A DNA stretch of 64,000 bases from Branchiostoma floridae (lineage: Eukaryota > Chordata > Leptocardii > Amphioxiformes > Branchiostomatidae): assembly GCF_000003815.2 (NCBI RefSeq), contig NC_049995.1:9699370-9763369 (forward strand), read 5' to 3'. Numbering within the stretch: the stretch's first letter is position 1; each line of letters starts with the position of its first letter. The position numbers and the translations under genes are program-made. The notes beneath the pieces were generated by a model, which saw nothing but the letters and a program-made list of their open reading frames with translations, was not told where the DNA came from and did not search any database. Below are positions 1,268 to 33,800 of the stretch, one piece after another.

Positions 1268-1800
1268 CTTCATGCAGGCTGAGACTTCACCAGTTTGATC
1301 TTACAACCATAGATTTCAGTCCCGTCAAGCTTACGCCAGGCATTCTCCATGTCTTGGTAGGTGGAAAATTCCACAATCCCCTCATTCCTGTTCTGCTTGT
1401 GCACATCAGCAAAGGTGACTTCTCCAGCTTGCCGCACGTAATCCTTCAAGTCCTGCCAGCTACAGCGACTGGACAAGTTCTTCACAATCAGGCGGTAGTT
1501 AGTGCGGACAGGCGAGCCATATCTTTTCTTGCCCTTCGACCCCTGGCCGCCTCCATGGCCGCGATACCCTGGGCCAAAGCCACGCTGGCTCCCTCCATAC
1601 GATCTGCCACGAGTCGGCACGACCATTGTAGCTGTACTCGCTCGATCTGAATCCACGGCTGCTCCTGTCGCAGTCCCCGTCCCGTCTGTAACCACCGCGT
1701 CCTCCTCCGTCACCATGGCGACCGAATGCTGGTCCGTTATTGGTGGGACTATCCTCCAGTCCCCTGCGGATGTGGGTTCCTGACCGAACTTATGTGTTGG
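1268..1800 (-). pseudogene. Fragment of an SRSF4/5/6-type SR splicing factor (second RRM)
   Basis: On the minus strand an uninterrupted stretch ends at 1270 and encodes the second RRM of an SR protein. The signature SWQDLKD is present, preceded by NLSSRC and followed by [12 protein letters not shown] and a KLDGTEI motif. SRSF4/5/6 proteins use this pseudo-RRM to contact exonic splicing enhancers. Upstream, a Gly/Arg/Asp-rich linker of the kind found between the two RRMs is visible, but in another frame. The first RRM and the RS tail are missing, a stop follows soon after the RRM, and two normally conserved positions near the end (Asn and Arg in the TEINGRKI region) are Tyr and Cys. With no introns seen, I infer a decayed retrocopy or gene fragment. 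Confidence 0.65.
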
Positions 1801-1811
1801 AGCTATCTGTA

Positions 1812-2141
1812 TCAGCTTGGCCGGGTTTGGGATGTCACGTCCGAGGATGACATCTCTAACTTTCGTTCCTTCTTTTTCTCTTCAGCTTCTATCTTCAGTT
1901 TCTCCATCTCTACCTGTCGTTCCTTCCCTCTCTCTTCAGCTTCTAACTTTAACTTTTGCATTTCTCTTTCCTTGGCTCTCTCCTCCCTCTCCAGTGCCTG
2001 CTGCACATACGTTTGCAAAGCCTCCTCCTTCAGGCCTAGTTTCGAACCCGCCTCGATATATTCTTCCATCTTCCCTTTTTTGATGAGTTTACTGATTTGT
2101 TTCGGCCCGTCTGACTGACGTTCTTTTGGTATCATGCACAC
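1812..2141 (-). other. Charged coiled-coil stretch, possibly a gag-like retroelement fossil
   Basis: A minus-strand stretch encodes a Lys/Glu-rich coiled coil with repeats such as EREERAKEREMQKLKLEAEE. Similar segments sit near the N-terminus of gag-like proteins in invertebrate LTR elements. It is short, isolated and without LTRs or a pol region, so at most a small broken fossil. A host-gene fragment is also possible. Confidence 0.3.
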
Positions 2142-4240: not shown

Positions 4241-5449
4241 GGGTAATTCCGATGTACATGTACAAGGTCTGTTGTTTTAGTATTGTTTGTGCTTGATTGG
4301 AGAACAAAAGATCATTGTCCTCCTCTGGCTGGGAAAGTTGTTTTTACCAAAGGAATTAGACAATAATCGGAGCCGATTCGCAGCTGCCTGTCTGGGAATT
4401 TTGTCTTAGAGAAAGAGTTACGTGTAGCTATTTTGTGCGGTTTCAACCAGGTGAAATTAATAAAAGCATCCTTGAAGCATCCGCGACAAATTTTTCCCCA
4501 TCAGTGCAAAAGTTATTCTCTGACTTGAGACAATAACGTCAACTGTCTAGACAATGTGTTCACAAAAGCAACAACTGAAATATCGAGGTTAAAACCCTAA
4601 CCCTTATTTAACCTCCTTGGAAATATTGTGTATTGGATAAGATCAACACAAAAATATCTTTAATACTCGTGTAGGATGATATGCCCAATTGAAACTTTTT
4701 GAGACATTTTTTGGAAGTCTTAGTTTTCACGTACACAGTCAAGGTTATTTTTTATTTATAGACAAATAGTATGAACTATACAATAACCGCAGGTCTGTAC
4801 ATAAGAAAAAATATTGCATGCTTTATTTCTAGTCACAAAACGAACACCTACACATTGACACATACAGCCCTGTCTTGTCCTTTGCTTTGTATTTGCTGGG
4901 CCATCTTGGAAATGGAGTCCGGAGGTAAAGCAATTAACTCACCAGGGGAAATTAGCACGTGATTGGGATGCAAAACTGGGAGGGGAACTACTGCATATTT
5001 ACAAGCACCTAACTCGCACTTGATTCATTACAATATTCAAGTACCTAATCATCATATTTAAATGAGGCATTTGGCAAGACAGGCCTGGGCCACCTTAGTC
5101 GCGCAGAGCAGTCGATGGTGTTACCGCGAAATTAAATCCTTGCGAACTTAAATGCATTTACAGTAATCAAATGAGGGCGCATTTTCAAATCCATAGGAGT
5201 TGCCTATTTTATATATTACTTATATATATATAGCTGCATAGTATTTTACTTATACGTATACGTGTGTGATTGATCGGTCAGTCACTGATATCCGTCTACG
5301 GCTGCATATGTTCACTGTGCTGGACCGTAAACTGTATGTCAATACCTGGTGAATAGAAAGTGCTCATATTTCCACGCTGCTATGCATATGTAATTGCTAG
5401 AATTTAGGCCATGAGCACGTGTGCAATTTCTAGCTGTCTTGTTATGAAT

Positions 5450-5552
5450 GTACCATGTGTCAGTCACTATGTACCATGTGTCAGTCACTATGTACCATGT
5501 GTCAGTCACTATGTACCATGTGTCAGTCACTATGTACCATGTGTCAGTCACC
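5450..5552. repeat. 21-bp tandem repeat, five units
   Basis: GTACCATGTGTCAGTCACTA plus T is repeated five times with essentially no divergence, about 450 bp upstream of the TRIM gene start. Near-identity suggests a young, probably length-variable array. Confidence 0.9.
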
Positions 5553-6000
5553 ACGCACGTAAAAGTCGTACGTCGGCGGGATAAATAGTATTAGTGTTTC
5601 CATAAGTTCTTCTGGTGTCCGCTTTGGAATAGTCATACATGTACCCCTATGGCTAGAAAATTGCTATCTATAATAACTAAGAAAACTGTGTAAGGGAAAC
5701 GTTAGCTTTTGTACGGTTAAGTGGCAACCGCATCATGTGACCAACGCGTAAATAAAGGTAACGTCATTGACATGCTCACCTTGTTTGGGTGAAAGTTCAA
5801 CGTTCAAAGTCCTGCTTCCCCCTACATTTGTTCACCTTAAGTTCTTCCATCATTTGAGTAACAGCTTAAGGTATCAAAGTTTGAATTCGCCGCTTGCCAC
5901 TTCTTTAATTTGTAGTCTTCTTTATCTTTGAACTTGATCAAACATTTTGTTTCTTCTACGTCTTGTTCCGGACTCAGTCAACCATCTCGAAACGTTCAAA

Positions 6001-9000
6001 ATGGCGGAATCAAAACTTCTGAATCGGCTCTCAGAAGATTTTCTCGAGTGTCAGATCTGCCTGCAGCCCTACCGCCGACCAAAGGTACTGTCTTGTCTTC
6101 ATTCCTTCTGTCAGCAGTGTCTTGAAGAGTTTCTTAAGAGACAAACGGTAAAAACTGAGCTGGATTGCCCCACCTGTCGCAGCAAGACTTTACTTCCGGG
6201 TGGCGGGGTCGCGGAACTGAAAGATAATTTCTTTGTGGAAAGTCTGAAGGACACGGTTGGCGTCCACAAGAAGCTGACAGATGAAGCAGAGGTTCTCCTT
6301 TGTGGTAGCTGTGAGACTAAGACTGGGGCGGAGTCTTTCTGTATGGAATGTGGCGACTTTCTTTGTGACGAATGTGCCGCAATACACCGTCGCATGAAAG
6401 TCACAAGGGGTCACAAGATAGTCGGAGTAGAGCAGCTCAAAGCCGACTTTGACAATGTTAGGATCAAGCCTCGTCCCCTGCCACCGTGTAAGATCCACTC
6501 ACAGGAGACTTTGAAATTGTTCTGCATCGATTGTAGCGAGGCTATTTGCCAGATATGCACCGTATTGTCCCACAAAGACCACAAGTACGAGTATTTCACC
6601 GACACAGCCGCCAAGGAAAAAGAAGACATACTTGCTCTTCTTGAGAAAACAAAAAATAAGTTGAGGGATCTTAAGAATGCTGAACAACAAGCGCTCGCAC
6701 AGAAGAACGTGTTTGAGAAACGAGTCAAGGAAACTGCCGAGAAGATCAAAAGCAAAGCAGAGCAAACGATAACGGAGGTAAATCAGCGAGAGGCAGAGTT
6801 ACAGAGTTACGTGACTACATTGAGCAAGGCCCGGAATAAAGAGTTCTCCACGGCTATAGAAGAGATAGAAACGGCGACTGTGGCGTTAGAGAGCGCGGCA
6901 GAGTTCGGACGGAACATCGTGGAACACGGGGCGGAGTTTGACATTATGGCGGTCGGTGCCCAGGTGAGCTATAGACTGAAGAAACTGTTACAGGTAGAGG
7001 CTGCCAACATAATAGAGGAATTACCTAAGAAGACCTACATCGCTTTTAAGGAGGAGGAGACGTCAATTATGGCTAAACCTCGTCTGGGAGAAGTCAAGAC
7101 AAAGAAATTTGAAGGTAAGCTGTGCGTTTTCAAGAGTATGCATTATATATATACATAATCGTCTATTCAACAACATTTTCATTCATAGTACTCAGTCTGC
7201 TGTGCTCAGTGTGGCGTTTGAAATAGACATCGGTATCTTACCGGCATCTAATGTTTTACGTCTATATCCTGCTAGTTACAATTGTCTATTGTGTATAGTT
7301 GTTGTGCATGTAAATTTATCACATGTTGTAAACTCAGCGATATTTAGAGGTGTTCTGCAATGTTAATTTAAAATAAAGGTTGAAGAAAGATTGAAGACGT
7401 GTTGTATTCTCTTTGTAATCTGCATCTTTTGACACATATTAGCTATAAACTATTAATCTTTATCGTGCAAAAAATGACACTTAGATGTACGGCTGGAACT
7501 TTGAACTGATTTGGAAGAGTTAATGTTTCTCTCCTTTTACTCCTTTTATTATATTATTAGACTCTGTCAAGCCTTTTAGCCACTGGATCGCATCAAGAGA
7601 TGTCCATACCCACGGTAAAGACCACGGTCATGTGCCTGAAAATTATGACATCCACTTTGAGCCTAAAGTGTCACAGTTACAGGTAAGATTTTTCACAACA
7701 CTGTTGTGTTGTCTTTGCCCCAGTTATATTTTCGAAATCCTCAATAAATTGTAGCGTAGTCAAGTACAATGTTTTATATACATGTATATCTGCATTTAGG
7801 AATAATGGTATACATGGTTGCTAAACGTACTGCCCTTTTACTATCAAAGGCTCTTAGATAGGTTTATTATTAGATATCAAGTACATGCAGTGCGGTAGGG
7901 ATGTGCCCATTTCAAGATGACACTTTTAAGATGAATACTTACCAGCTTAAACATATTTAGAACCCAAGAAACAGAATCTTAGACAACATACGTCATGTAG
8001 TAACAGAATAGCACGTGAACTTTTTAGCGCGTTTCGTTTTTAACCCATACAAAACAATATGTCTATGGTAACCACTACTCACACATTGTTTTGTCTTTCC
8101 TTGAGGGATTCGGTCAGCTGTTCAAGACCAAGCCACCAGCTGCAGCTTCGAGTGGGTCCGTTTTCGGAAAGGCCTCGCCAGCTAAAGGAGCGGGTTTTAC
8201 ATTCGGTGGTCCAGCCAAGCCGGCAGAATCCTCAGGGTTCGGCTTTGGTGGCCCAAGAATCGGAAGTCGTCCAGCTACTGGTATACGTACAGGATTTAGT
8301 TTCGGGGTTAAGGCAGATGAGACGTCCTTCAATTCTTTATCTCCGTTTTTCAGTCAAGCTGGAAAGCAAATGCCGAGTATCAATGATTTGGCCAAGCAGT
8401 CACTCCTGGGTGCAGAGACGGGTCCGTTAGCAGATGCCCCGAAGCAGACAGCGACAGCCTTCGGTGGACAGGATAGCATGAGCGGTACGGCTTCCCCTAG
8501 CACACTGTTTCGCACTTCAACAATAGATACATCAATGTCGACACTCTCTGTTAAGGAGATGGCTAACCAAGTTGGAGGATTCAAGTTTACCTTTAGTCCT
8601 GAGAAGATCATCCCCGCATCTAAAACAAGTGCCAAAAGCCCACTAAAAAGTCCAACCAAAAGCCCCAACAACGACGACGACTCCAAACTTCCTGAAAGGA
8701 TCGAACTCAAAACCGGAGAAGAGGAGGAGGAACAGCTGTTCAAGTTTCGAGCAAACTTGTTCTGCTGGGATAAAGACTACAACGAGTGGAAAGAGCGAGG
8801 GGTGGGAGAAATCAAGATCCTACGCCACAAGACGACAAACCGTTCCCGTGTGCTGATGAGGCGCGAAAAGGTGCTGACGGTGTGCGCGAACCACGTCATT
8901 AACGGAACCATGTCCCTGCATCCAAGTTCCGGATCCGACCGGTCTTGGGTCTGGACGGCCTTTGACGCAGCAGAAGAGGAACCAAAGGCAGAGCAGTTCG

Positions 9001-9134
9001 CTGTTCGGTTCAAACTCCCTGAAACCGCGGTCGAGTTCAAGACACACTTTGACCAGTGTGTCGAAAAAGCAAAGAGGTATTCTTCCCCAACCAAATCAAG
9101 TCCGGAGAATATCTCTCCCGTCCAAAAACCCTAG
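6001..9134 (+). CDS. TRIM-type RING E3 fused to FG repeats and a Ran-binding domain
   Basis: Three exons, 6001-7114, 7561-7682 and 8106-9134, join at GT-AG sites with matching phases (1, then 0) into 754 aa. I chose the ATG at 6001 (AAAATGG context), 16 residues before the RING. Residues 17-59 hold the RING cysteines (CQIC, CLHSFCQQC, CPTC), about 101-139 a first B-box, about 163-195 a second, and about 205-300 a coiled coil. Exon 2 (372-412) ends in YDIHFEPKVSQLQ, like the lead-in to RanBP2 Ran-binding domains. Exon 3 opens with FxFG-type motifs (VFGK, FTFGG, FGFGG, FSFG) and SP repeats, then a RanBP1/RanBP2-type domain at about 607-737 with WKERGVG and VCANH. RING TRIM proteins are ubiquitin ligases; this domain type binds Ran-GTP at nuclear pores. 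Together they suggest, by inference, a pore- or Ran-targeted ligase. Two adjacent genes wrongly joined is the alternative. Confidence 0.8.
7372..7377 (+). terminator. Possible intronic poly(A) signal of the TRIM gene
   Basis: AATAAA lies in intron 1, 258 bp after the exon 1 donor. Unspliced reading adds about 14 residues and stops at 7158, so a short RING/B-box/coiled-coil isoform without the Ran-binding part could end here. Confidence 0.4.
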
Positions 9135-9455
9135 GACGAAAGATTGACTGTATATTGGGACGGGAGCAAGTCCGAAACTCCGTCCGCAAACTTTCCGTGG
9201 ATCCGTTGGGGAATTCAATGGACCCGGAGCAGTCCAAACATATTGCGAGGAACACTAAGGCCATGTTCATTCAAGAGAACAGTTCGCAGTCAGCTTTTAA
9301 AGTTTCTTAAGGATTGGGCAGTATACTGGCTCCTTATCTCACTGCGCTTGGAACACTGGTGTGTCACTGTGGGGTTCGAAAGAGGCTCAACGAATTTCAG
9401 AGATGAAGAAGAGACTTTAACAGTATTCATTACTGTACACTTTTGTAAGTAGGGA

Positions 9456-9461
9456 AATAAA
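9456..9461 (+). terminator. Poly(A) signal of the TRIM/Ran-binding gene
   Basis: AATAAA about 320 bp after the TAG stop at 9132-9134, in AT-rich sequence, is the first such signal downstream and gives a plausible 3' UTR of 9135 to about 9480. Confidence 0.6.
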
Positions 9462-9479
9462 TTTGAACACCATAATGAT

Positions 9480-11304
9480 TTTCCCTTTTTTTAATCACAT
9501 AATTTTAATAACAAGAAGCAGCAATTTACACCACACTTTCACCATACCAACATTTTTCTAGCTGTTCACCACAATCATTGAACAAATAGCTGATGCATGT
9601 ATTAACTATATATATATATGTAATTTTAGAAAGAAAAATTTCCAGCAAATTGTAAAGACAGGCTACAAGTTTCAAATTTTACAAATAGTACTACAAATGT
9701 TTTGGTATATACGTCAAGATTGTGTCAAATTGACGATGCCTAAGCCAAGACAAATGTAGAAATTAAGCACTTTTATCTGAATGTCTTTCTGTGTTACGAT
9801 GTATTTTACATAGCTGTATATACAGTCTGATTGTTTTTTGTTGTCTTACTACATAATTTTGTGTAATAGAATCATGTGATAGACCAACACCGATATCACT
9901 ATTAACTATGGCGCAAACATACATCTTTAAAGAGGCAATACTTAGTAATATAAGAGACATTTTTCTTGACATTTCAACATGTTCAGCATATCAGATTACT
10001 TCAATAATCTTTTCACTGCAAATTGTCAATAAAACAATCAAATCTATTACAATTCTAGCTTACAAATCTGCAATAGAATATTCTGAGAAGTTTTATTAAA
10101 TCTGACAAATTTCCCTTGAAGCCAGAAAAGCTAATGATATGCTTTAAGTTTATAAATTTCTGCATAGTCAATAGTTAACTATATCTTTAGTTATTATAAT
10201 TTGAAATTTATCCTAAGAATAAATTTTTGGATTTTATCTATAAGATTTACATACACAAAGGCTGATTATCTGTATTCAAATCACAAAACAGATTTTAATA
10301 TTAAATTTTCTTCTATATGTATATTGTAGACTAAGTGTAGGTTTTAATTTAGATTGCTTTGATCTAACTAATTTTCAAAAAGAATAGCAAAGTGTCTCTC
10401 TTTTACCAATAGTTTTGTCATATTCTCAGAGCCTATCCCATAATAGTACTAGTATAGCATCATCGTGCTACCAAATATGGGCAACACATAATCATGTGAC
10501 CCAGAGGTTATGATTTGAACACTGTTGGAAGGGCCACCTTTTTTTACACTAAAAATGATACAGGCAAAAAAATCAGTAAACAGTATAGTGAATATATATT
10601 ATGATTCTGTCTCTAGTCAAAATTACCTACATCAAAATCAACTTCAATCTATTATAATTGTTATTTTTCACAAGAAATTGTCTTATTTTTGGGGTTTGCT
10701 CTCTAGCTTGGAAGAAATATTGAGAGATTGAAACATAATTTTTCTATTTTGTCGCAGTGATTGACTGAGAGTGGTCACTTTGTCATAATGCAACATTCAC
10801 ACGTATACATTCTTTTTTTTATGGAGAGCATTTTGTTTTCGGTTCTAAATTAAATTCTATCCATAGTTGAATCTCCAAAAAAAAACAAGACGGAAATTAA
10901 ACGTTTTGTCCAGGGCTATAGCTAAATATGTATAACTTTTTTCTTACCTGCAAAGCTCATTTATCGAAGATTTTTTGGTGGCACTGTATTGGCTGTCTAA
11001 GAAAAAAAAAATACTAATTTAAAACACTATCATCATGTAATTCCTGGCATAAGTCATAGTATATGTATTTCTTGCTGGACAACAAATTCAAAAACAGTCC
11101 CACTGAAAATAAATGGGCTTTTCAGGAAATAAGAAAGATGACTGCCCTGTCAACCCAACACCCTCCAACAGAATGGTACATTCCATTCTACAGATCTAAA
11201 ATCACAGTAAGATTGGAACAAACCATTCCGGTTTCACATAGAATATGGTAGGATTAAAGTAATGAACTGGCAAGAAAACATTCAATGAATGGTATGTCGC
11301 AGTT
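9480..11304. other. AT-rich stretch between convergent genes, no gene seen
   Basis: Very AT-rich sequence between the 3' ends of the TRIM/Ran-binding gene (+) and TTC39C (-). No coding exon is visible. Part may be TTC39C 3' UTR; a minus-strand AATAAA lies near 10093, but I cannot say it is used. Confidence 0.5.
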
Positions 11305-25714
<14,410 letters not shown>

Positions 25715-27829: not shown

Positions 27830-30800
27830 ATGAAGTTACTGATTGGTATCTGTCTTCTTTTGGTGGCATTTCGAGCGGTAAATGCTCGAAATGTTTGGAG
27901 TCAGCAGATCGAAAACTTCTACCATCTTGTGGGGAAAATTGAAGCCGCTCTGCAAAGAGAAGCGTTGGAAATTTTGAGCAGCTTGGACTTGAAGTGGCAT
28001 GAAGAAATTTGGACCAATGCCAACATGAGTCGGCAGTGTGAGGAGGACATGTTGAAGTTTCGGAAGGATCTGTTTCATCGGGAGAACTACGCTCTACATA
28101 GTAAGTAATGCCTGTAACTCGTACTAAGGTTCTAGAGACCTTCTTTTCGTTTTGTGTTTAACTGAAAATGACAACGGTTGGACTATAATATAAATAGGCA
28201 TGCATTTACATCCAATTTGTGTCTGGTATACATGTTTTTTATTGATGCCGTGGTAATTATAATTTGAATCCCCAGTATCCATATTGGCGTGGTTCTATAA
28301 GCAATGACATATTCATGTGCTTTGCGGGCTTATAAGCTCTTTCGAAGATCTTCACTTCGAGTGTGTGAACAACAGAATATTCTTGGTAGTACATTGTATG
28401 TCAAAGGCCAAGGCCCAACAGACGTAAACAGTCTCGTCTCGGCCATTGTTTTGATTTCCTTAACAATGTCCAGAACGTAAAAGCGCCTGCAAAATGGCGG
28501 AATGTTTACGTTTAGGGGGCCTCCACCTTTGACATATTACCCAGAACTCCTGCCATCCGAACATGCGAAGTGAACTCTGCGACATATATTTAGACAATGG
28601 TCGAACGCGACTGTACACGTCTGAGGGGCATTCAGCTTTGACATATTACCCAGGATTCCTCTCGCCCACACAAGCGCACTGAAATCTGTGAAAGGGTTTA
28701 TTGATAACCATTTCCATCTCACAGTGCTAGACGCCTGTGGAAAACCTCCGAGTGGCATTCTGACTGGCAACCTGAACTGGCCCGGCAGTTACTCCCAGTG
28801 CGTCAAAGTGACCAAAGAAGAGAACAACATCACGTTCGACGGGAAGTACTTCATGGCAAATTTGGTTCTTACCGAAAGCAACAACCAGGTAAGATTTTTG
28901 ACACAGTCCCTTTTTGGTTGAAATGCTTTATTTTTTGTCACGATTATTTTCTGAAATCATAGAAATTGAATGATTATTAAAACTCAGTTGTAGATTCTTG
29001 TAGATGAAGGAATATCCTCGCTCTCACCACATATAAAGATATTTTGCTTCGAGATGCATTTAAACCTGTCTATAGGGGTCACTCAAGGGACTGTCAAAAT
29101 TTGACCGCTATGGGCAGGTGGCCCCTATAGGCAATACAGCCATTTGACCACCGGCAATAAGTGACAAGACAGTCATCTTCCACTGAGATACTGAGTCTTT
29201 ATTGTCATATATACAAGATTAGTTTAATAAGTTTAACTTGATTTGACTTACCTTAATAAGCTTTATGAAACACTGGATACATTTGCATTACTACCACTTC
29301 TACAATACTGTAACTGCTCCTTTATTTCTGTAGAAGAACATTAACAGAGAAGACATTAACTGAATGAAGACCTTTATTGCACATTTTTTATTTATTTTTT
29401 ATTTATTTGAACTTCACCATATGTGTTTACAAAATGGTAGGGAGGCAAAAACAGGTACTTTGTAACCTTTACTAGTTGCCTCCCGTGCAACTAAATTATA
29501 CAATAATAGAAAAATAATCATAATGATAACGAATAATAACAATTGTACAATCAAATAATAATGATTGTGTCAACGACAATAAAAGCAAATATACAATAAT
29601 ATCAAATACAAAGAAATAAATCATAGAAATAATGGTAAGATGAAATATGAAATATCTAGAAAGGTGTACAACTGGGACACTGACAGTGGGTGACCCAAGT
29701 ACATACATGTACGTCGTTGGAGTTAAATCTGTCGTTGGTAAGAGAGAGATAGTGAACTAGGATTGCTTTCTTAAAGGTATTAATTGTAACAACTGGGGAA
29801 AGTTGTAGAGTTCTAATGTTGAGGGGTAAAGCGTTCCAGATGTGAACGATTCTTTGGAAGAAATAGTTTTTAAACGTAGTGGTGAGACCATTTTTGCCCC
29901 ACTGGGCTAAGTACAGGTCACACGGTAAGAACCACATATATGTAACAATGGAAACAATCATACACATCTATATATGTAGATGTGCGTCTAATCTATTCTA
30001 GGACATTCGACTTCCTCTCGCTTCTTGGTAATTGTATAAATGTAGCTAGCTGTATAGTTGGTTAGAGTTGGTTTATCAAAAGCTGTCAGGAATATAAATT
30101 TCTCTTTACTATTCAAGTATCTAAAGTGGGGATATCTACTTAACACATAGTCAAATAAAATGCTCTTATCGCTAACAAAGGACAATCCATAGTAAAATGT
30201 ACTTCATCTTCTACTTTCCCTAAACTAAGTCTCTCTTTTTCTTTAGTAATTAACAATAAGACCCACTTATAGCCTCAAATAAGTTCAATTGCAATAATAG
30301 TCACAATGTACATTGGGTTGGAAGTTTGGAACTGTCCGCGCGTACCCATAATAAGGATTATGCATGAACCATGAATGAAATTTGGACCAGATTTCACATT
30401 CCAGGAGTTTGGAACAATTGTATGACTACAATTTCTTGAAGAATGTGTCCAAGGTCTAGGTTGTCTGCTTGGCCTGAGCCCTCCTCTTATTCCAAGTTTC
30501 ACAGGACACGTCATCTAGGTCGTGGAGGAGTACCAGACCCTCCCCAAAACCCTCCTTCAAACAGAAGTGCTTCATCTTTTGGATACATTCCATGAACATG
30601 GAAAAGTTCTCAAGTCCACCTTCTTCCTCGTCATCGTCCTCCTCATCGTCAGTGTCGCCATCCTTCTCCTTCTCTGCATGGAGCTGCTGCAGGTTGGCTG
30701 AGACTGGTTGGTTCCAGTCCGTCCCAGTGGTGTCACAGGTGGCCAGTCCCCCCACCACGATTTTGTCCACACCGGCGCTTTGCCCGACCATCGTGCTTCG

Positions 30801-33800
30801 TCCAATGTTGTGCCGCTTCTTGAAACTCTCCAGCCACCCGTTGGAAGCTTTGAACTCTGTCACGCCGAGCTCCTTCGCGAACTTCCGCGCGGCTTCCTGT
30901 AGCATGGGCCCTGAACATGTGACGAGTCGGGTTGTGGTGTCGCGGTAGAACTCCCAGCACAGTCGGTTGATTTCCTCATTGCCGGTGTTGCAGGTCCTTC
31001 TCTTCTTGCCGGTCGGGGCGTTGTTCTCGAAGTCCTCAAGATGCTCTTGTTTTCTCTTTACGATACGCTGGATCTGAGTCCGGCCGACACCGAAATCAGC
31101 CGCTAGCTGACGGGACGACTTGCCGTTCTCGGAACGTCGGATGACCTCGATTTTCTGTAGCAACGTCAATGCGTGTCTCTTGGGAGTCGAAGCCTTCGCC
31201 ATCGTACGTCTGAATCAAAACTGACAGACATTTGCTTGGTTCTATTGTCTTTTATACAGTTGGAATTGTCTGAACACAGAAGTCAGCGCCGCCATTTTCC
31301 TTTGTTTCTCAATCAGTCAGCTTTGGTCACCACGCGAGTCACCAGCAACTTTGCCAATCGAATCGACGTGTCGTGTAAATGCCGCTAGTTGTCGGCAAAG
31401 ATTTGACGTTTAATCAATACTGATCACAAGTTCATAATCATTTCTAAGTGTGAAACCGCCACCAACAACTCTCCTTTGTTTATGAAGGCTTGGCTGGACT
31501 TGTCTGCATAATGCAGTGCATGTGCCATTATTCCGAGATGGTCACGACGAAATAAAACTTTCTCTACTAGGATTATTTCTTTGACAAAAATCCAACGTAG
31601 TTACTAGTGTAGCTTCCACATACATTAATTTCATTTAATTAATTTCAATCGTTTTTATACACTGTACTGGTAATTCCATGGAAAGGGATGGTCACTAGAA
31701 TTGAGGGTCTACAGTCCCCAATTGAAACCCGAAATAAACTGGGATGAACCCCTCTTAATTGTATGTCGCGCACGCTGGAATGAAAGCTGCAATGTTATTT
31801 TGTTGTCTCCGTTCAAGATTAGCACATATTTTTGCTCAGTTTTTTTCTCATTTTTTTCTTCCTTTCCAAATACATAAGGTCAGTGACCTGGAACAGACGG
31901 CTGTTACCATGGTAACTGGGAAAGTAGCAGACACCTCGTGGTGTTCGATTACACAATGTAGCAAGTGGCAGGACAGGGTTGGAGAGGCTGGTCACCATAT
32001 ACTAGTACAATGTATATCATTGTCTTTGAGTATCAATTAACAGCTACAGCATTTTGTTAGGCTAGTCCATGTGAAGTTAAACATTAGCATTTGTTTGCAA
32101 ATGCAACATTTTTATTGTTTTTTTTCCAGACCAACATCCCAATGAAACTAGGCCTGTGCGTCCCTAGTTCGTGCACTGAGAATGACGTCATTTTGCAGAT
32201 AGAAAACAGTAAGTAATATGTTGTAATCATGGGATATATCTTATGCTACTCAACGTTTTTACGGAACAAGTATAAAACCGTTTCTTTTTTGTTTGTTTGT
32301 GTATGTGTTTATCAAATTTAAAGCTGCACATAAAATGTATACTTGACGAATGAATTGTATTAAAAGAATGGGGTTTAAGTGAATGGATTGGAAAATGCTT
32401 GCATTATCTATTTTCTTTTTTGTTAACCATTATTCCAGATCTCTTTATCTGTTTGTTTCTGATGATGTGTCAAAACTGTACTGTTGAAATGTTATCCAAA
32501 ATGGATACATGACGTTTAGAGTGAAAGAATGAACCTTGAATCAATAGAATAGGTTTGAAAATGACTTTTTTATTTATTCATTAATCTATGTTTTTTACTT
32601 ACCGTTATTCTAGATCTCTTTGTCTGGTCAATGGTTAATTGGAGAGTCCTAAAAGTTACTGCGTACTTACCGGAAGTCGCACCAATTAATCCATGGACAG
32701 TGGCTGCGATGTAAGAATTTCGTTGCGTTCTTAACCGCGCAGCCTTTCTTTGTGTAATACATGTTGGAGTTAATATAATTTCACCAAGCAGTGACTACAT
32801 TTTAAAGGTAAACACACGTATATCCAAATTTTCGATGGCTATCAGTTCATATTGTTCACGGAGGACCTAGTTCTCGCGAGAGTTGCGAGAACGAGGTCGA
32901 GACTTGCGTGGATCTTCTGCCCCTTACCTCGCCTCCTTATTATTTTTTACGGAATAGGGGTACGTGTGTGTATACCTGTATGAAAATTCTATCAAATGGG
33001 CACATACGTGACTAATAAATCTCTTCAACGATGTCGGAGTTGTTTTGTTTTTTAAATTGATACTTGTTACCAATCGAACGACGTGGTGTTTCTACGTATG
33101 TACGGTTTATGTGTATTTACCAACGGAAACAATTTCTGCGTTGTGATAAAATCTTTTCTGCAGTTTAATCTGTGCGGCAATTTGCATATTGCAACTGGTT
33201 GGTACGACATATGATGTCATGGTTGTACGACATCGGAAAGCAGCCACCGAAAAGGTGCGTTATTGTCGCTTTATGATTAATCAGTGAGTTTTTCTAGACT
33301 AATTAGGTGGTAACAGCCTCAAGTTTTAGTAGTAATTTCGCTCTACTGCATCGCTGTAGAAGCCAGTTAATTGCACAATGGATTAACGCACACTTCTGTT
33401 AACTGCACGGAATCCCAAAATCCCAAAACGGTGTGGTCCAGCTGGATAACTTCGCATAATTGCACCAGCTGGATAATTCTACGAAATTCACTGGCAAACA
33501 GGCCGTGCAATTAAGAGGCTTCTACTGTATATTGAAAACGTTTAGTACATGTAACGCTAGTTCGCCTTTATCTGCGGGTAACCTATAACTGTTGTATGTA
33601 TTTAACCCTATTCAGACCGGGCTTTTTTGGTCATCCCTGGACCGGGGGGGGGGGGGGGCTTTTGAGGCCCTCCACTTCTAAGTCCTCTAACTCTTGAACG
33701 ACGTGCCGTAGGGCCACCAATTTTTTAGGACATGATATCAACACAATATCTGACGAGAATGTGACGTTGGACGTTACGTTGACGTAAGATGACGTAATTA

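Follow-up and report, generated by a model that had tools for sequence, protein, structure and literature searches.

TRIM2 and TRIM3, which carry a RING, two B-boxes and a coiled coil, end in filamin and NHL domains. Another C-terminus is described for zebrafish ftr52, a cloned and spliced cDNA that, according to the excerpted account (PMC3137616), would encode an RBCC-RanBD-CypA protein but for a premature stop in its RING exon; the TRIM parent is a finTRIM, the Ran-binding domain (RanBD) and cyclophilin come from four exons, and its authors suggest that TRIM exons were inserted into a RanBP2-like gene. An RBCC followed by a host-protein binding part is also found in TRIMCyp, TRIM-NUP153C and TRIM-Nup358Cyp, which excerpts of PMC3795039 and PMC3930637 present as engineered or cyclophilin-based. 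Among the literature matches listed (open-licence PMC articles without their supplements), there was no natural TRIM-RanBD fusion besides ftr52, and term look-ups in portions of PMC2575513, PMC4284660, PMC3503706 and PMC9334734 returned nothing on such a fusion; other odd Branchiostoma TRIMs are described there as carrying MATH domains (PMC3503706, in part).

Here, we describe a lancelet locus within a window of 64,000 nucleotides (the whole stretch analysed, C17:9699370-9763369), in which a TRIM RBCC is followed by FG motifs and a RanBD. Like ftr52, it combines a TRIM RBCC with a RanBP2-derived C-terminus containing a RanBD. By its sequence, it differs from this precedent in the TRIM parent, which belongs to another family, in the portion acquired from RanBP2 (the FG segment together with the last RanBD, and no cyclophilin behind it) and in its open frame, a comparison that rests on the published description of ftr52 (PMC3137616, in part). 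It shares a RING, two B-boxes and a predicted coiled coil with TRIM2 and TRIM3, but the product ends in FG-RanBD. With the laboratory fusions, it shares the arrangement of an RBCC with a C-terminal binding part and, with TRIM-NUP153C, an FG-nucleoporin part, whereas here FG motifs and a RanBD lie together in an invertebrate germ line (PMC3795039, PMC3930637, both in part). Its FG segment and RanBD are copied, with divergence, from the host's RanBP2/Nup358, but only one RanBD is present, and the IR1-M SUMO-ligase region, the RanBP2 zinc fingers and the cyclophilin are missing.

Gene Structure and Domain Composition

The gene lies on the plus strand and consists of three exons (6001-7114, 7561-7682 and 8106-9134), which join to 2265 nt, i.e., 754 codons and a stop, with zero internal stops. 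Both donors are GT (AAG/GTAAGC after exon 1, CAG/GTAAGA after exon 2), and both acceptors are AG (TTATTAG/AC before exon 2, CCTTGAG/GG before exon 3). Exon 1 (1114 nt) contains the start codon and the TRIM RBCC module in 371 codons plus 1 base and ends in phase 1; since exon 3 begins in phase 0, skipping of exon 2 would break the frame. The stop-free runs in the locus reach 406 and 368 aa, compared to a maximum of 199 aa in 300 simulated stretches of 5.5 kb, which excludes that these frames are open by chance. An AATAAA lies 3′ of the stop codon on the same strand (9456-9461). Judged from these features, a TRIM-FG-RanBD protein is very probably produced from one spliced gene, and the argument for one gene is independent of any gene predictor.

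The product has the elements of a TRIM/RBCC protein, with a C3HC4 RING finger (6049-6177, aa 17-59; Pfam and a complete C3HC4 pattern), B-box 1 (6298-6420, aa 100-140; best Pfam stretch and a complete ligand pattern), B-box 2 (6481-6588, aa 161-196; best Pfam stretch, ligands at 163-194) and, behind the B-boxes, a predicted coiled-coil helix (6595-6927, aa 199-309). The coiled coil is predicted from the alignment of residues 157-329 to a TRIM3 chain in a PDB sequence search and from a single-sequence model, which gives a helix at 199-309 with a pLDDT of about 90 only at ~211-260 (mean 49, remainder poor). The FG segment (8106-8687, aa 413-606) contains seven FG motifs, three of which are FxFG (FTFG, FGFG and FSFG); this count was reached in 44 of 20,000 shuffles, and so the FG motifs exceed what composition gives. 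The RanBD (8703-9065, aa 612-732) is of the RanBP1/RanBP2 type and nearly full-length, covering positions 1-121 of the 122 in the Pfam Ran_BP1 model (E 4.3e-47), with WKERG at 640 and CANH at 672; modelled alone, this stretch came out poorly (mean pLDDT 44). The nearest PDB sequences are TRIM3 and TRIM2 for the RBCC and RanBP2 for the RanBD, which is 49-54% identical to three aligned Nup358 RanBDs. Pfam detected no RanBP2 zinc finger, IR1-M, cyclophilin or further RanBD in the product, and NCBIfam gave a single RING match, below its cut-off. An earlier note, made from the letters of the window, had described three exons with splice sites and compatible phases, the domain order RING, two B-boxes, coiled coil, FG and RanBD, and FxFG-like motifs with a canonical RanBD (WKERG, VCANH). 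The reconstructed 754-aa reading, Pfam, the PDB sequences and the motif patterns bear this out, and the domain search that the note had proposed returned the RING, both B-boxes and Ran_BP1 in Pfam.

Elsewhere in the window, tblastn with both halves gave no other convincing match (best other E 0.69), and Rfam and ARAGORN found no matches. The other features seen are a 66-bp repeat in nine copies (327-932), open as a 237-aa minus-strand frame with no Pfam match; an RRM exon (1270-1881, minus strand; RRM_1 E 1.2e-13), which by eye is similar to a second RRM as in SR splicing factors; a 21-bp repeat with five perfect copies (5448-5551), about 450 bp upstream of the ATG of the fusion; an Iml2/TTC39 family frame (19485-20273, minus strand; E 2.4e-41); and a CENP-B/Tc5-type DNA-binding frame like that of a pogo/Tigger transposase (30456-31214, minus strand).

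Origin of the Two Halves

We searched the genome (513,431,437 bases in 431 contigs) with the RBCC exon and obtained 110 scored matches from 499 candidates, the exon itself included. Eleven full-length open copies, ten on C12 and one on C356, are 75-79% identical to exon 1, and three more close copies are incomplete, two of which enter masked stretches (L029, L030) while L028, on C16, is broken by a stop. They form a multicopy family of single-exon RBCC genes (C12:19186159-19293711, also C12:18951088, C356 and C16), and by sequence the front half is the TRIM RBCC exon of this C12-clustered family. All eight RING ligands are identical in the 11 full-length paralogues, and the last B-box 1 ligand (138) falls in a gap in one of them (L027). 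A phase-1 GGTAA donor at the position of the exon 1 end is readable in 11/11 of these copies, suggesting that the donor is old. In a protein tree, the fusion RBCC falls outside the 11 paralogues, with weak support (59).

Downstream of two C12 copies, the reading frames are rich in glycine, and so the C-terminus of the C17 member differs from that of those two; for the remaining copies, about 1.5 kb of downstream sequence was inspected, and an SH3-domain frame was seen behind one (L026). The ALK/LTK glycine-rich domain was considered for the glycine-rich frames, but no match passed a cut-off in Pfam or the PDB sequence search, so that we leave them unnamed, and two pieces of them searched in the window gave no convincing match (best E 0.30).

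When the genome was searched for Ran_BP1, all 13 candidates were scored and 12 matches were obtained, six within the RanBP2 gene on C12, one in the C17 fusion, one on C6 and two each on C11 and C7; none overlaps a place of the TRIM-family paralogues. The C6 match is an intronless RanBP1-like open frame (L013:4527-5174, minus strand) that pairs with the C11 RanBP1-like gene (support 97) and faces what by eye is a LINE-endonuclease-like frame, and may be a RanBP1 retrocopy. In the C12 RanBP2 gene, IR1-M and RanBP2 zinc fingers accompany several RanBDs. Exon 3, with the FG segment, the RanBD and the stop codon, is the homologue of the last-RanBD exon of this gene (exon B), with 75% base identity across 1054 columns and 265 of 338 aligned residues identical; 113 of 133 residues are shared between the fusion RanBD and the last RanBD of RanBP2, and the two pair in a small RanBD tree (support 77). 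Exon 2 corresponds to RanBP2 exon A, the start of the preceding split RanBD, with a RanBD lead-in ending in DIHFEP; its acceptor, donor and start phase agree with those of exon A. The lead-in match by letters was reached by 68 of 100,000 shuffles in a test made post hoc, and exon 2 had no PDB match at E up to 10.

The resemblance extends into intron 1 (7115-7560), and the TRIM/RanBP2 junction lies within this intron. Over the final ~60-100 bases, intron 1 is similar to the RanBP2 intron that precedes exon A (77% at 7499-7541), and the score of the last 100 was equalled by none of 2000 shuffles. The resemblance is weak for the ends of intron 2 (score reached in 85 and 116 of 2000 shuffles, compared to 360 of 2000 for an unmatched control stretch) and borderline for the 200 bases 3′ of the stop codon (22 of 2000). 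Relative to RanBP2, intron 2 (7683-8105) is without three exons, which supply the rest of the split RanBD there, two zinc fingers heading exon B are missing, and 16 residues, including the DIHFEP lead-in ahead of the last RanBD, have been lost. By these comparisons, exons 2 and 3 are an intron-retaining partial copy of exons A and B of the same genome's RanBP2. Given the intron between the two exons and the RanBP2-like intron sequence ahead of exon 2, we reject a retrocopy origin. A transposon-borne origin was also considered, and a repeat search of 4501-11500 recognised no terminal repeats; it gave only imperfect inverted repeats no longer than 25 nt and the 21-bp tandem repeat that precedes the ATG. 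In summary, the sequence supports a join that arose within an intron, in matching phase 1, between a TRIM RBCC exon and a genomic copy of RanBP2 A/B. This upholds the TRIM-to-RanBP2 join proposed in the earlier note, relatives of both parts being found in the same genome.

Constraint on Both Halves

Pairwise dN/dS was obtained by Nei-Gojobori counting. Exon 3 compared to RanBP2 gave a dS of 0.754 and a dN of 0.132 (ratio 0.175), with ratios of 0.172 for the FG part and 0.157 for the RanBD. The RBCC compared to the 11 paralogues gave a dS of 0.44-0.57 and a dN of 0.116-0.136 (ratio 0.21-0.28), and the median ratio was 0.27 for the 55 pairs of paralogues among themselves. The branches of the other copies could account for most of the distance. 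In both halves, the total dN is below the expectation for a neutral fusion branch alone, taken as half of dS; assuming similar branch lengths, this speaks for a functional protein in each half. These comparisons support that both halves stayed open and constrained. The dS values of the two halves are unequal (0.44-0.57 versus 0.75), so the join may not date from the time of the duplication.

Proposed Function

As stated in excerpts of PMC4866044, FG repeats offer low-affinity sites to receptors of the importin-beta family, and the Ran-GTP of receptor complexes that exit the nucleus is bound by RanBDs. In the tests excerpted from PMC3930637, an N-terminal Nup358 part with one RanBD and three FG repeats was sufficient. 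Steering of the protein to pores or to Ran-GTP complexes by these domains, as the earlier note proposed, is plausible, and the RING would then act as a ligase aimed by the FG segment and the RanBD at Ran-GTP/transport-receptor complexes. One RanBD and seven FG motifs would thereby be placed behind a ubiquitin-ligase module, which would replace the SUMO-ligase context of RanBP2. The RanBP2 SUMO-ligase activity mentioned in the earlier note is not carried over, IR1-M being present in the C12 RanBP2 and absent from the fusion. The retention of the RanBD and the FG motifs behind this module favours a ligase directed at Ran-GTP/receptor complexes; taken alone, we consider such a role evenly balanced, and the whole account, a TRIM-FG-RanBD gene from a TRIM/RanBP2 join with this putative activity, moderately probable. 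The binding through FG motifs is expected to be weak, since, of six receptors tried with a RanBP2 fragment, Crm1 alone bound it stably, and two FG patches were needed (PMC4866044, in part). The loss of the 16-residue RanBD lead-in may also count against the proposal.

The chief rival assumes the same structure with a different substrate. By analogy with TRIMCyp and its cyclophilin A, the RanBP2-derived tail would act as bait, attracting capsids or effectors of agents that exploit the pore, and the RBCC would cage and ubiquitinate them. Such a decoy restriction factor would have precedents in TRIM-NUP153C, which restricts HIV-1 through its FG motifs (PMC3795039, in part), and in the antiviral TRIM-Nup358Cyp, which restricts HIV-1 (PMC3930637, in part). 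The origin of the RBCC from a multicopy family and the RBCC-RanBD-CypA order of ftr52 (PMC3137616, in part) also fit a decoy. However, cyclophilin, the capsid-binding part of TRIMCyp and TRIM-Nup358Cyp, is absent from the fusion, and the low dN/dS of both halves gives no sign of accelerated evolution, although pairwise averages can hide selected sites. We consider a decoy possible but rather unlikely.

Lower still we place a competitive regulator, a dimeric binder of Ran-GTP/receptor complexes that would compete with RanBP1 and RanBP2 and use its RING for oligomerisation or self-ubiquitination. The nearly complete RanBD and the predicted coiled coil would suit it, and certain TRIM RINGs are without ligase activity (PMC11992055, in part), but this RING and those of the 11 paralogues retain all eight ligands, which makes this role distinctly unlikely compared to a RING ligase acting on Ran-GTP/receptor complexes.

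One Gene or Two

The locus could also be read as a pair of adjacent genes, the first encoding only the TRIM part and terminating in intron 1, the second RanBP1-like and starting in exon 3. The exon 1 frame, read on into intron 1, meets a stop at 7158, an AATAAA follows at 7372-7377 (plus strand) as a possible transcript end, and the first in-frame ATG of exon 3, at 8370, opens a frame of 254 aa. Moreover, many lancelet gene models are erroneous fusions of neighbouring genes according to the excerpted text of PMC4967905, which calls for caution over a one-gene call. Against two genes, exon 2 retains the RanBP2 splice sites, frame and phase and has no in-frame ATG in a frame scan, and it requires an upstream donor in phase 1; exon 1 has such a donor, and the paralogues have kept theirs. 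In addition, the FG part upstream of the ATG at 8370 lies inside a constrained FG stretch (the ratio of 0.172 being that of the whole FG part). Two genes are thus very unlikely. Transcription of exons 2-3 from a promoter of their own, which the earlier note had named as the case against the fusion, is made unlikely by the nature of exon 2, a former internal RanBP2 exon with no start codon and in need of a donor. On a reading as one gene, the AATAAA and the stop at 7158 may give an additional TRIM-only form.

An assembly chimera of C12 and C17 pieces, to which the location of the closest relatives of both parts mainly on C12 could point, is barely credible, as the halves differ from these relatives by ~17-25% of bases, too much for either to be a misplaced piece of C12, RanBP2-like sequence already begins inside intron 1, and the only run of at least 10 Ns in the window (23068-23383) lies outside the gene.

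A Probable Second TRIM-RanBD Gene and Its Implications

On C7 (L015:1685-5624, i.e., C7:14069685-14073624, plus strand), the RanBD pieces given by the Ran_BP1 search are preceded by a RING in the same orientation, in what seems from its sequence to be a second TRIM-RanBD gene. It can be read in eight GT-AG exons, one of them 23 bp, with an open 595-aa reading; this model is one of 612 open splice-site combinations, ranked by site consensus, and its exact borders are tentative. The product contains a RING, a helical-looking region unnamed by any profile and a complete C-terminal Ran_BP1 (E 7.9e-30), with a B-box match (17.4 bits) below the Pfam cut-off of 24.1. Its RanBD best matches residues 2925-3045 of the human RanBP2 chain (3224 aa), which we take to be the last RanBD. 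In this order of parts, it is like the C17 fusion, but its RBCC is spread over several exons, whereas that of C17 lies in one, and the 595-aa reading contains no FxFG. The two proteins are 23% identical in the RBCC (282 columns) and 41% in the RanBD (51/125), and the C7 gene is not among the 110 RBCC-exon matches in the genome. We regard it either as an independent fusion or as an ancient relative. The earlier note had offered no precedent for a TRIM with this type of C-terminus; ftr52 is in print (PMC3137616, in part), and the same genome seemingly holds the C7 gene.

Taken with ftr52, the two lancelet genes raise the possibility that TRIM ligases repeatedly captured RanBP2-type RanBD modules in chordates, giving a class of E3 that patrols Ran-GTP/receptor traffic at the pore, probably as decoys or guards, an idea that we put forward only tentatively. 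The C17 gene is an open natural TRIM reading with nucleoporin FG and Ran-binding parts, whose junction and relatives are visible in one genome, and together the C17 gene, the C7 gene and ftr52 make a repeated uptake of RanBP2 modules by TRIM proteins for nuclear transport testable. Such an uptake would parallel that of cyclophilin A by TRIM proteins against capsids, and the C17 gene would be a natural counterpart to the engineered TRIM-nucleoporin fusions of virology.
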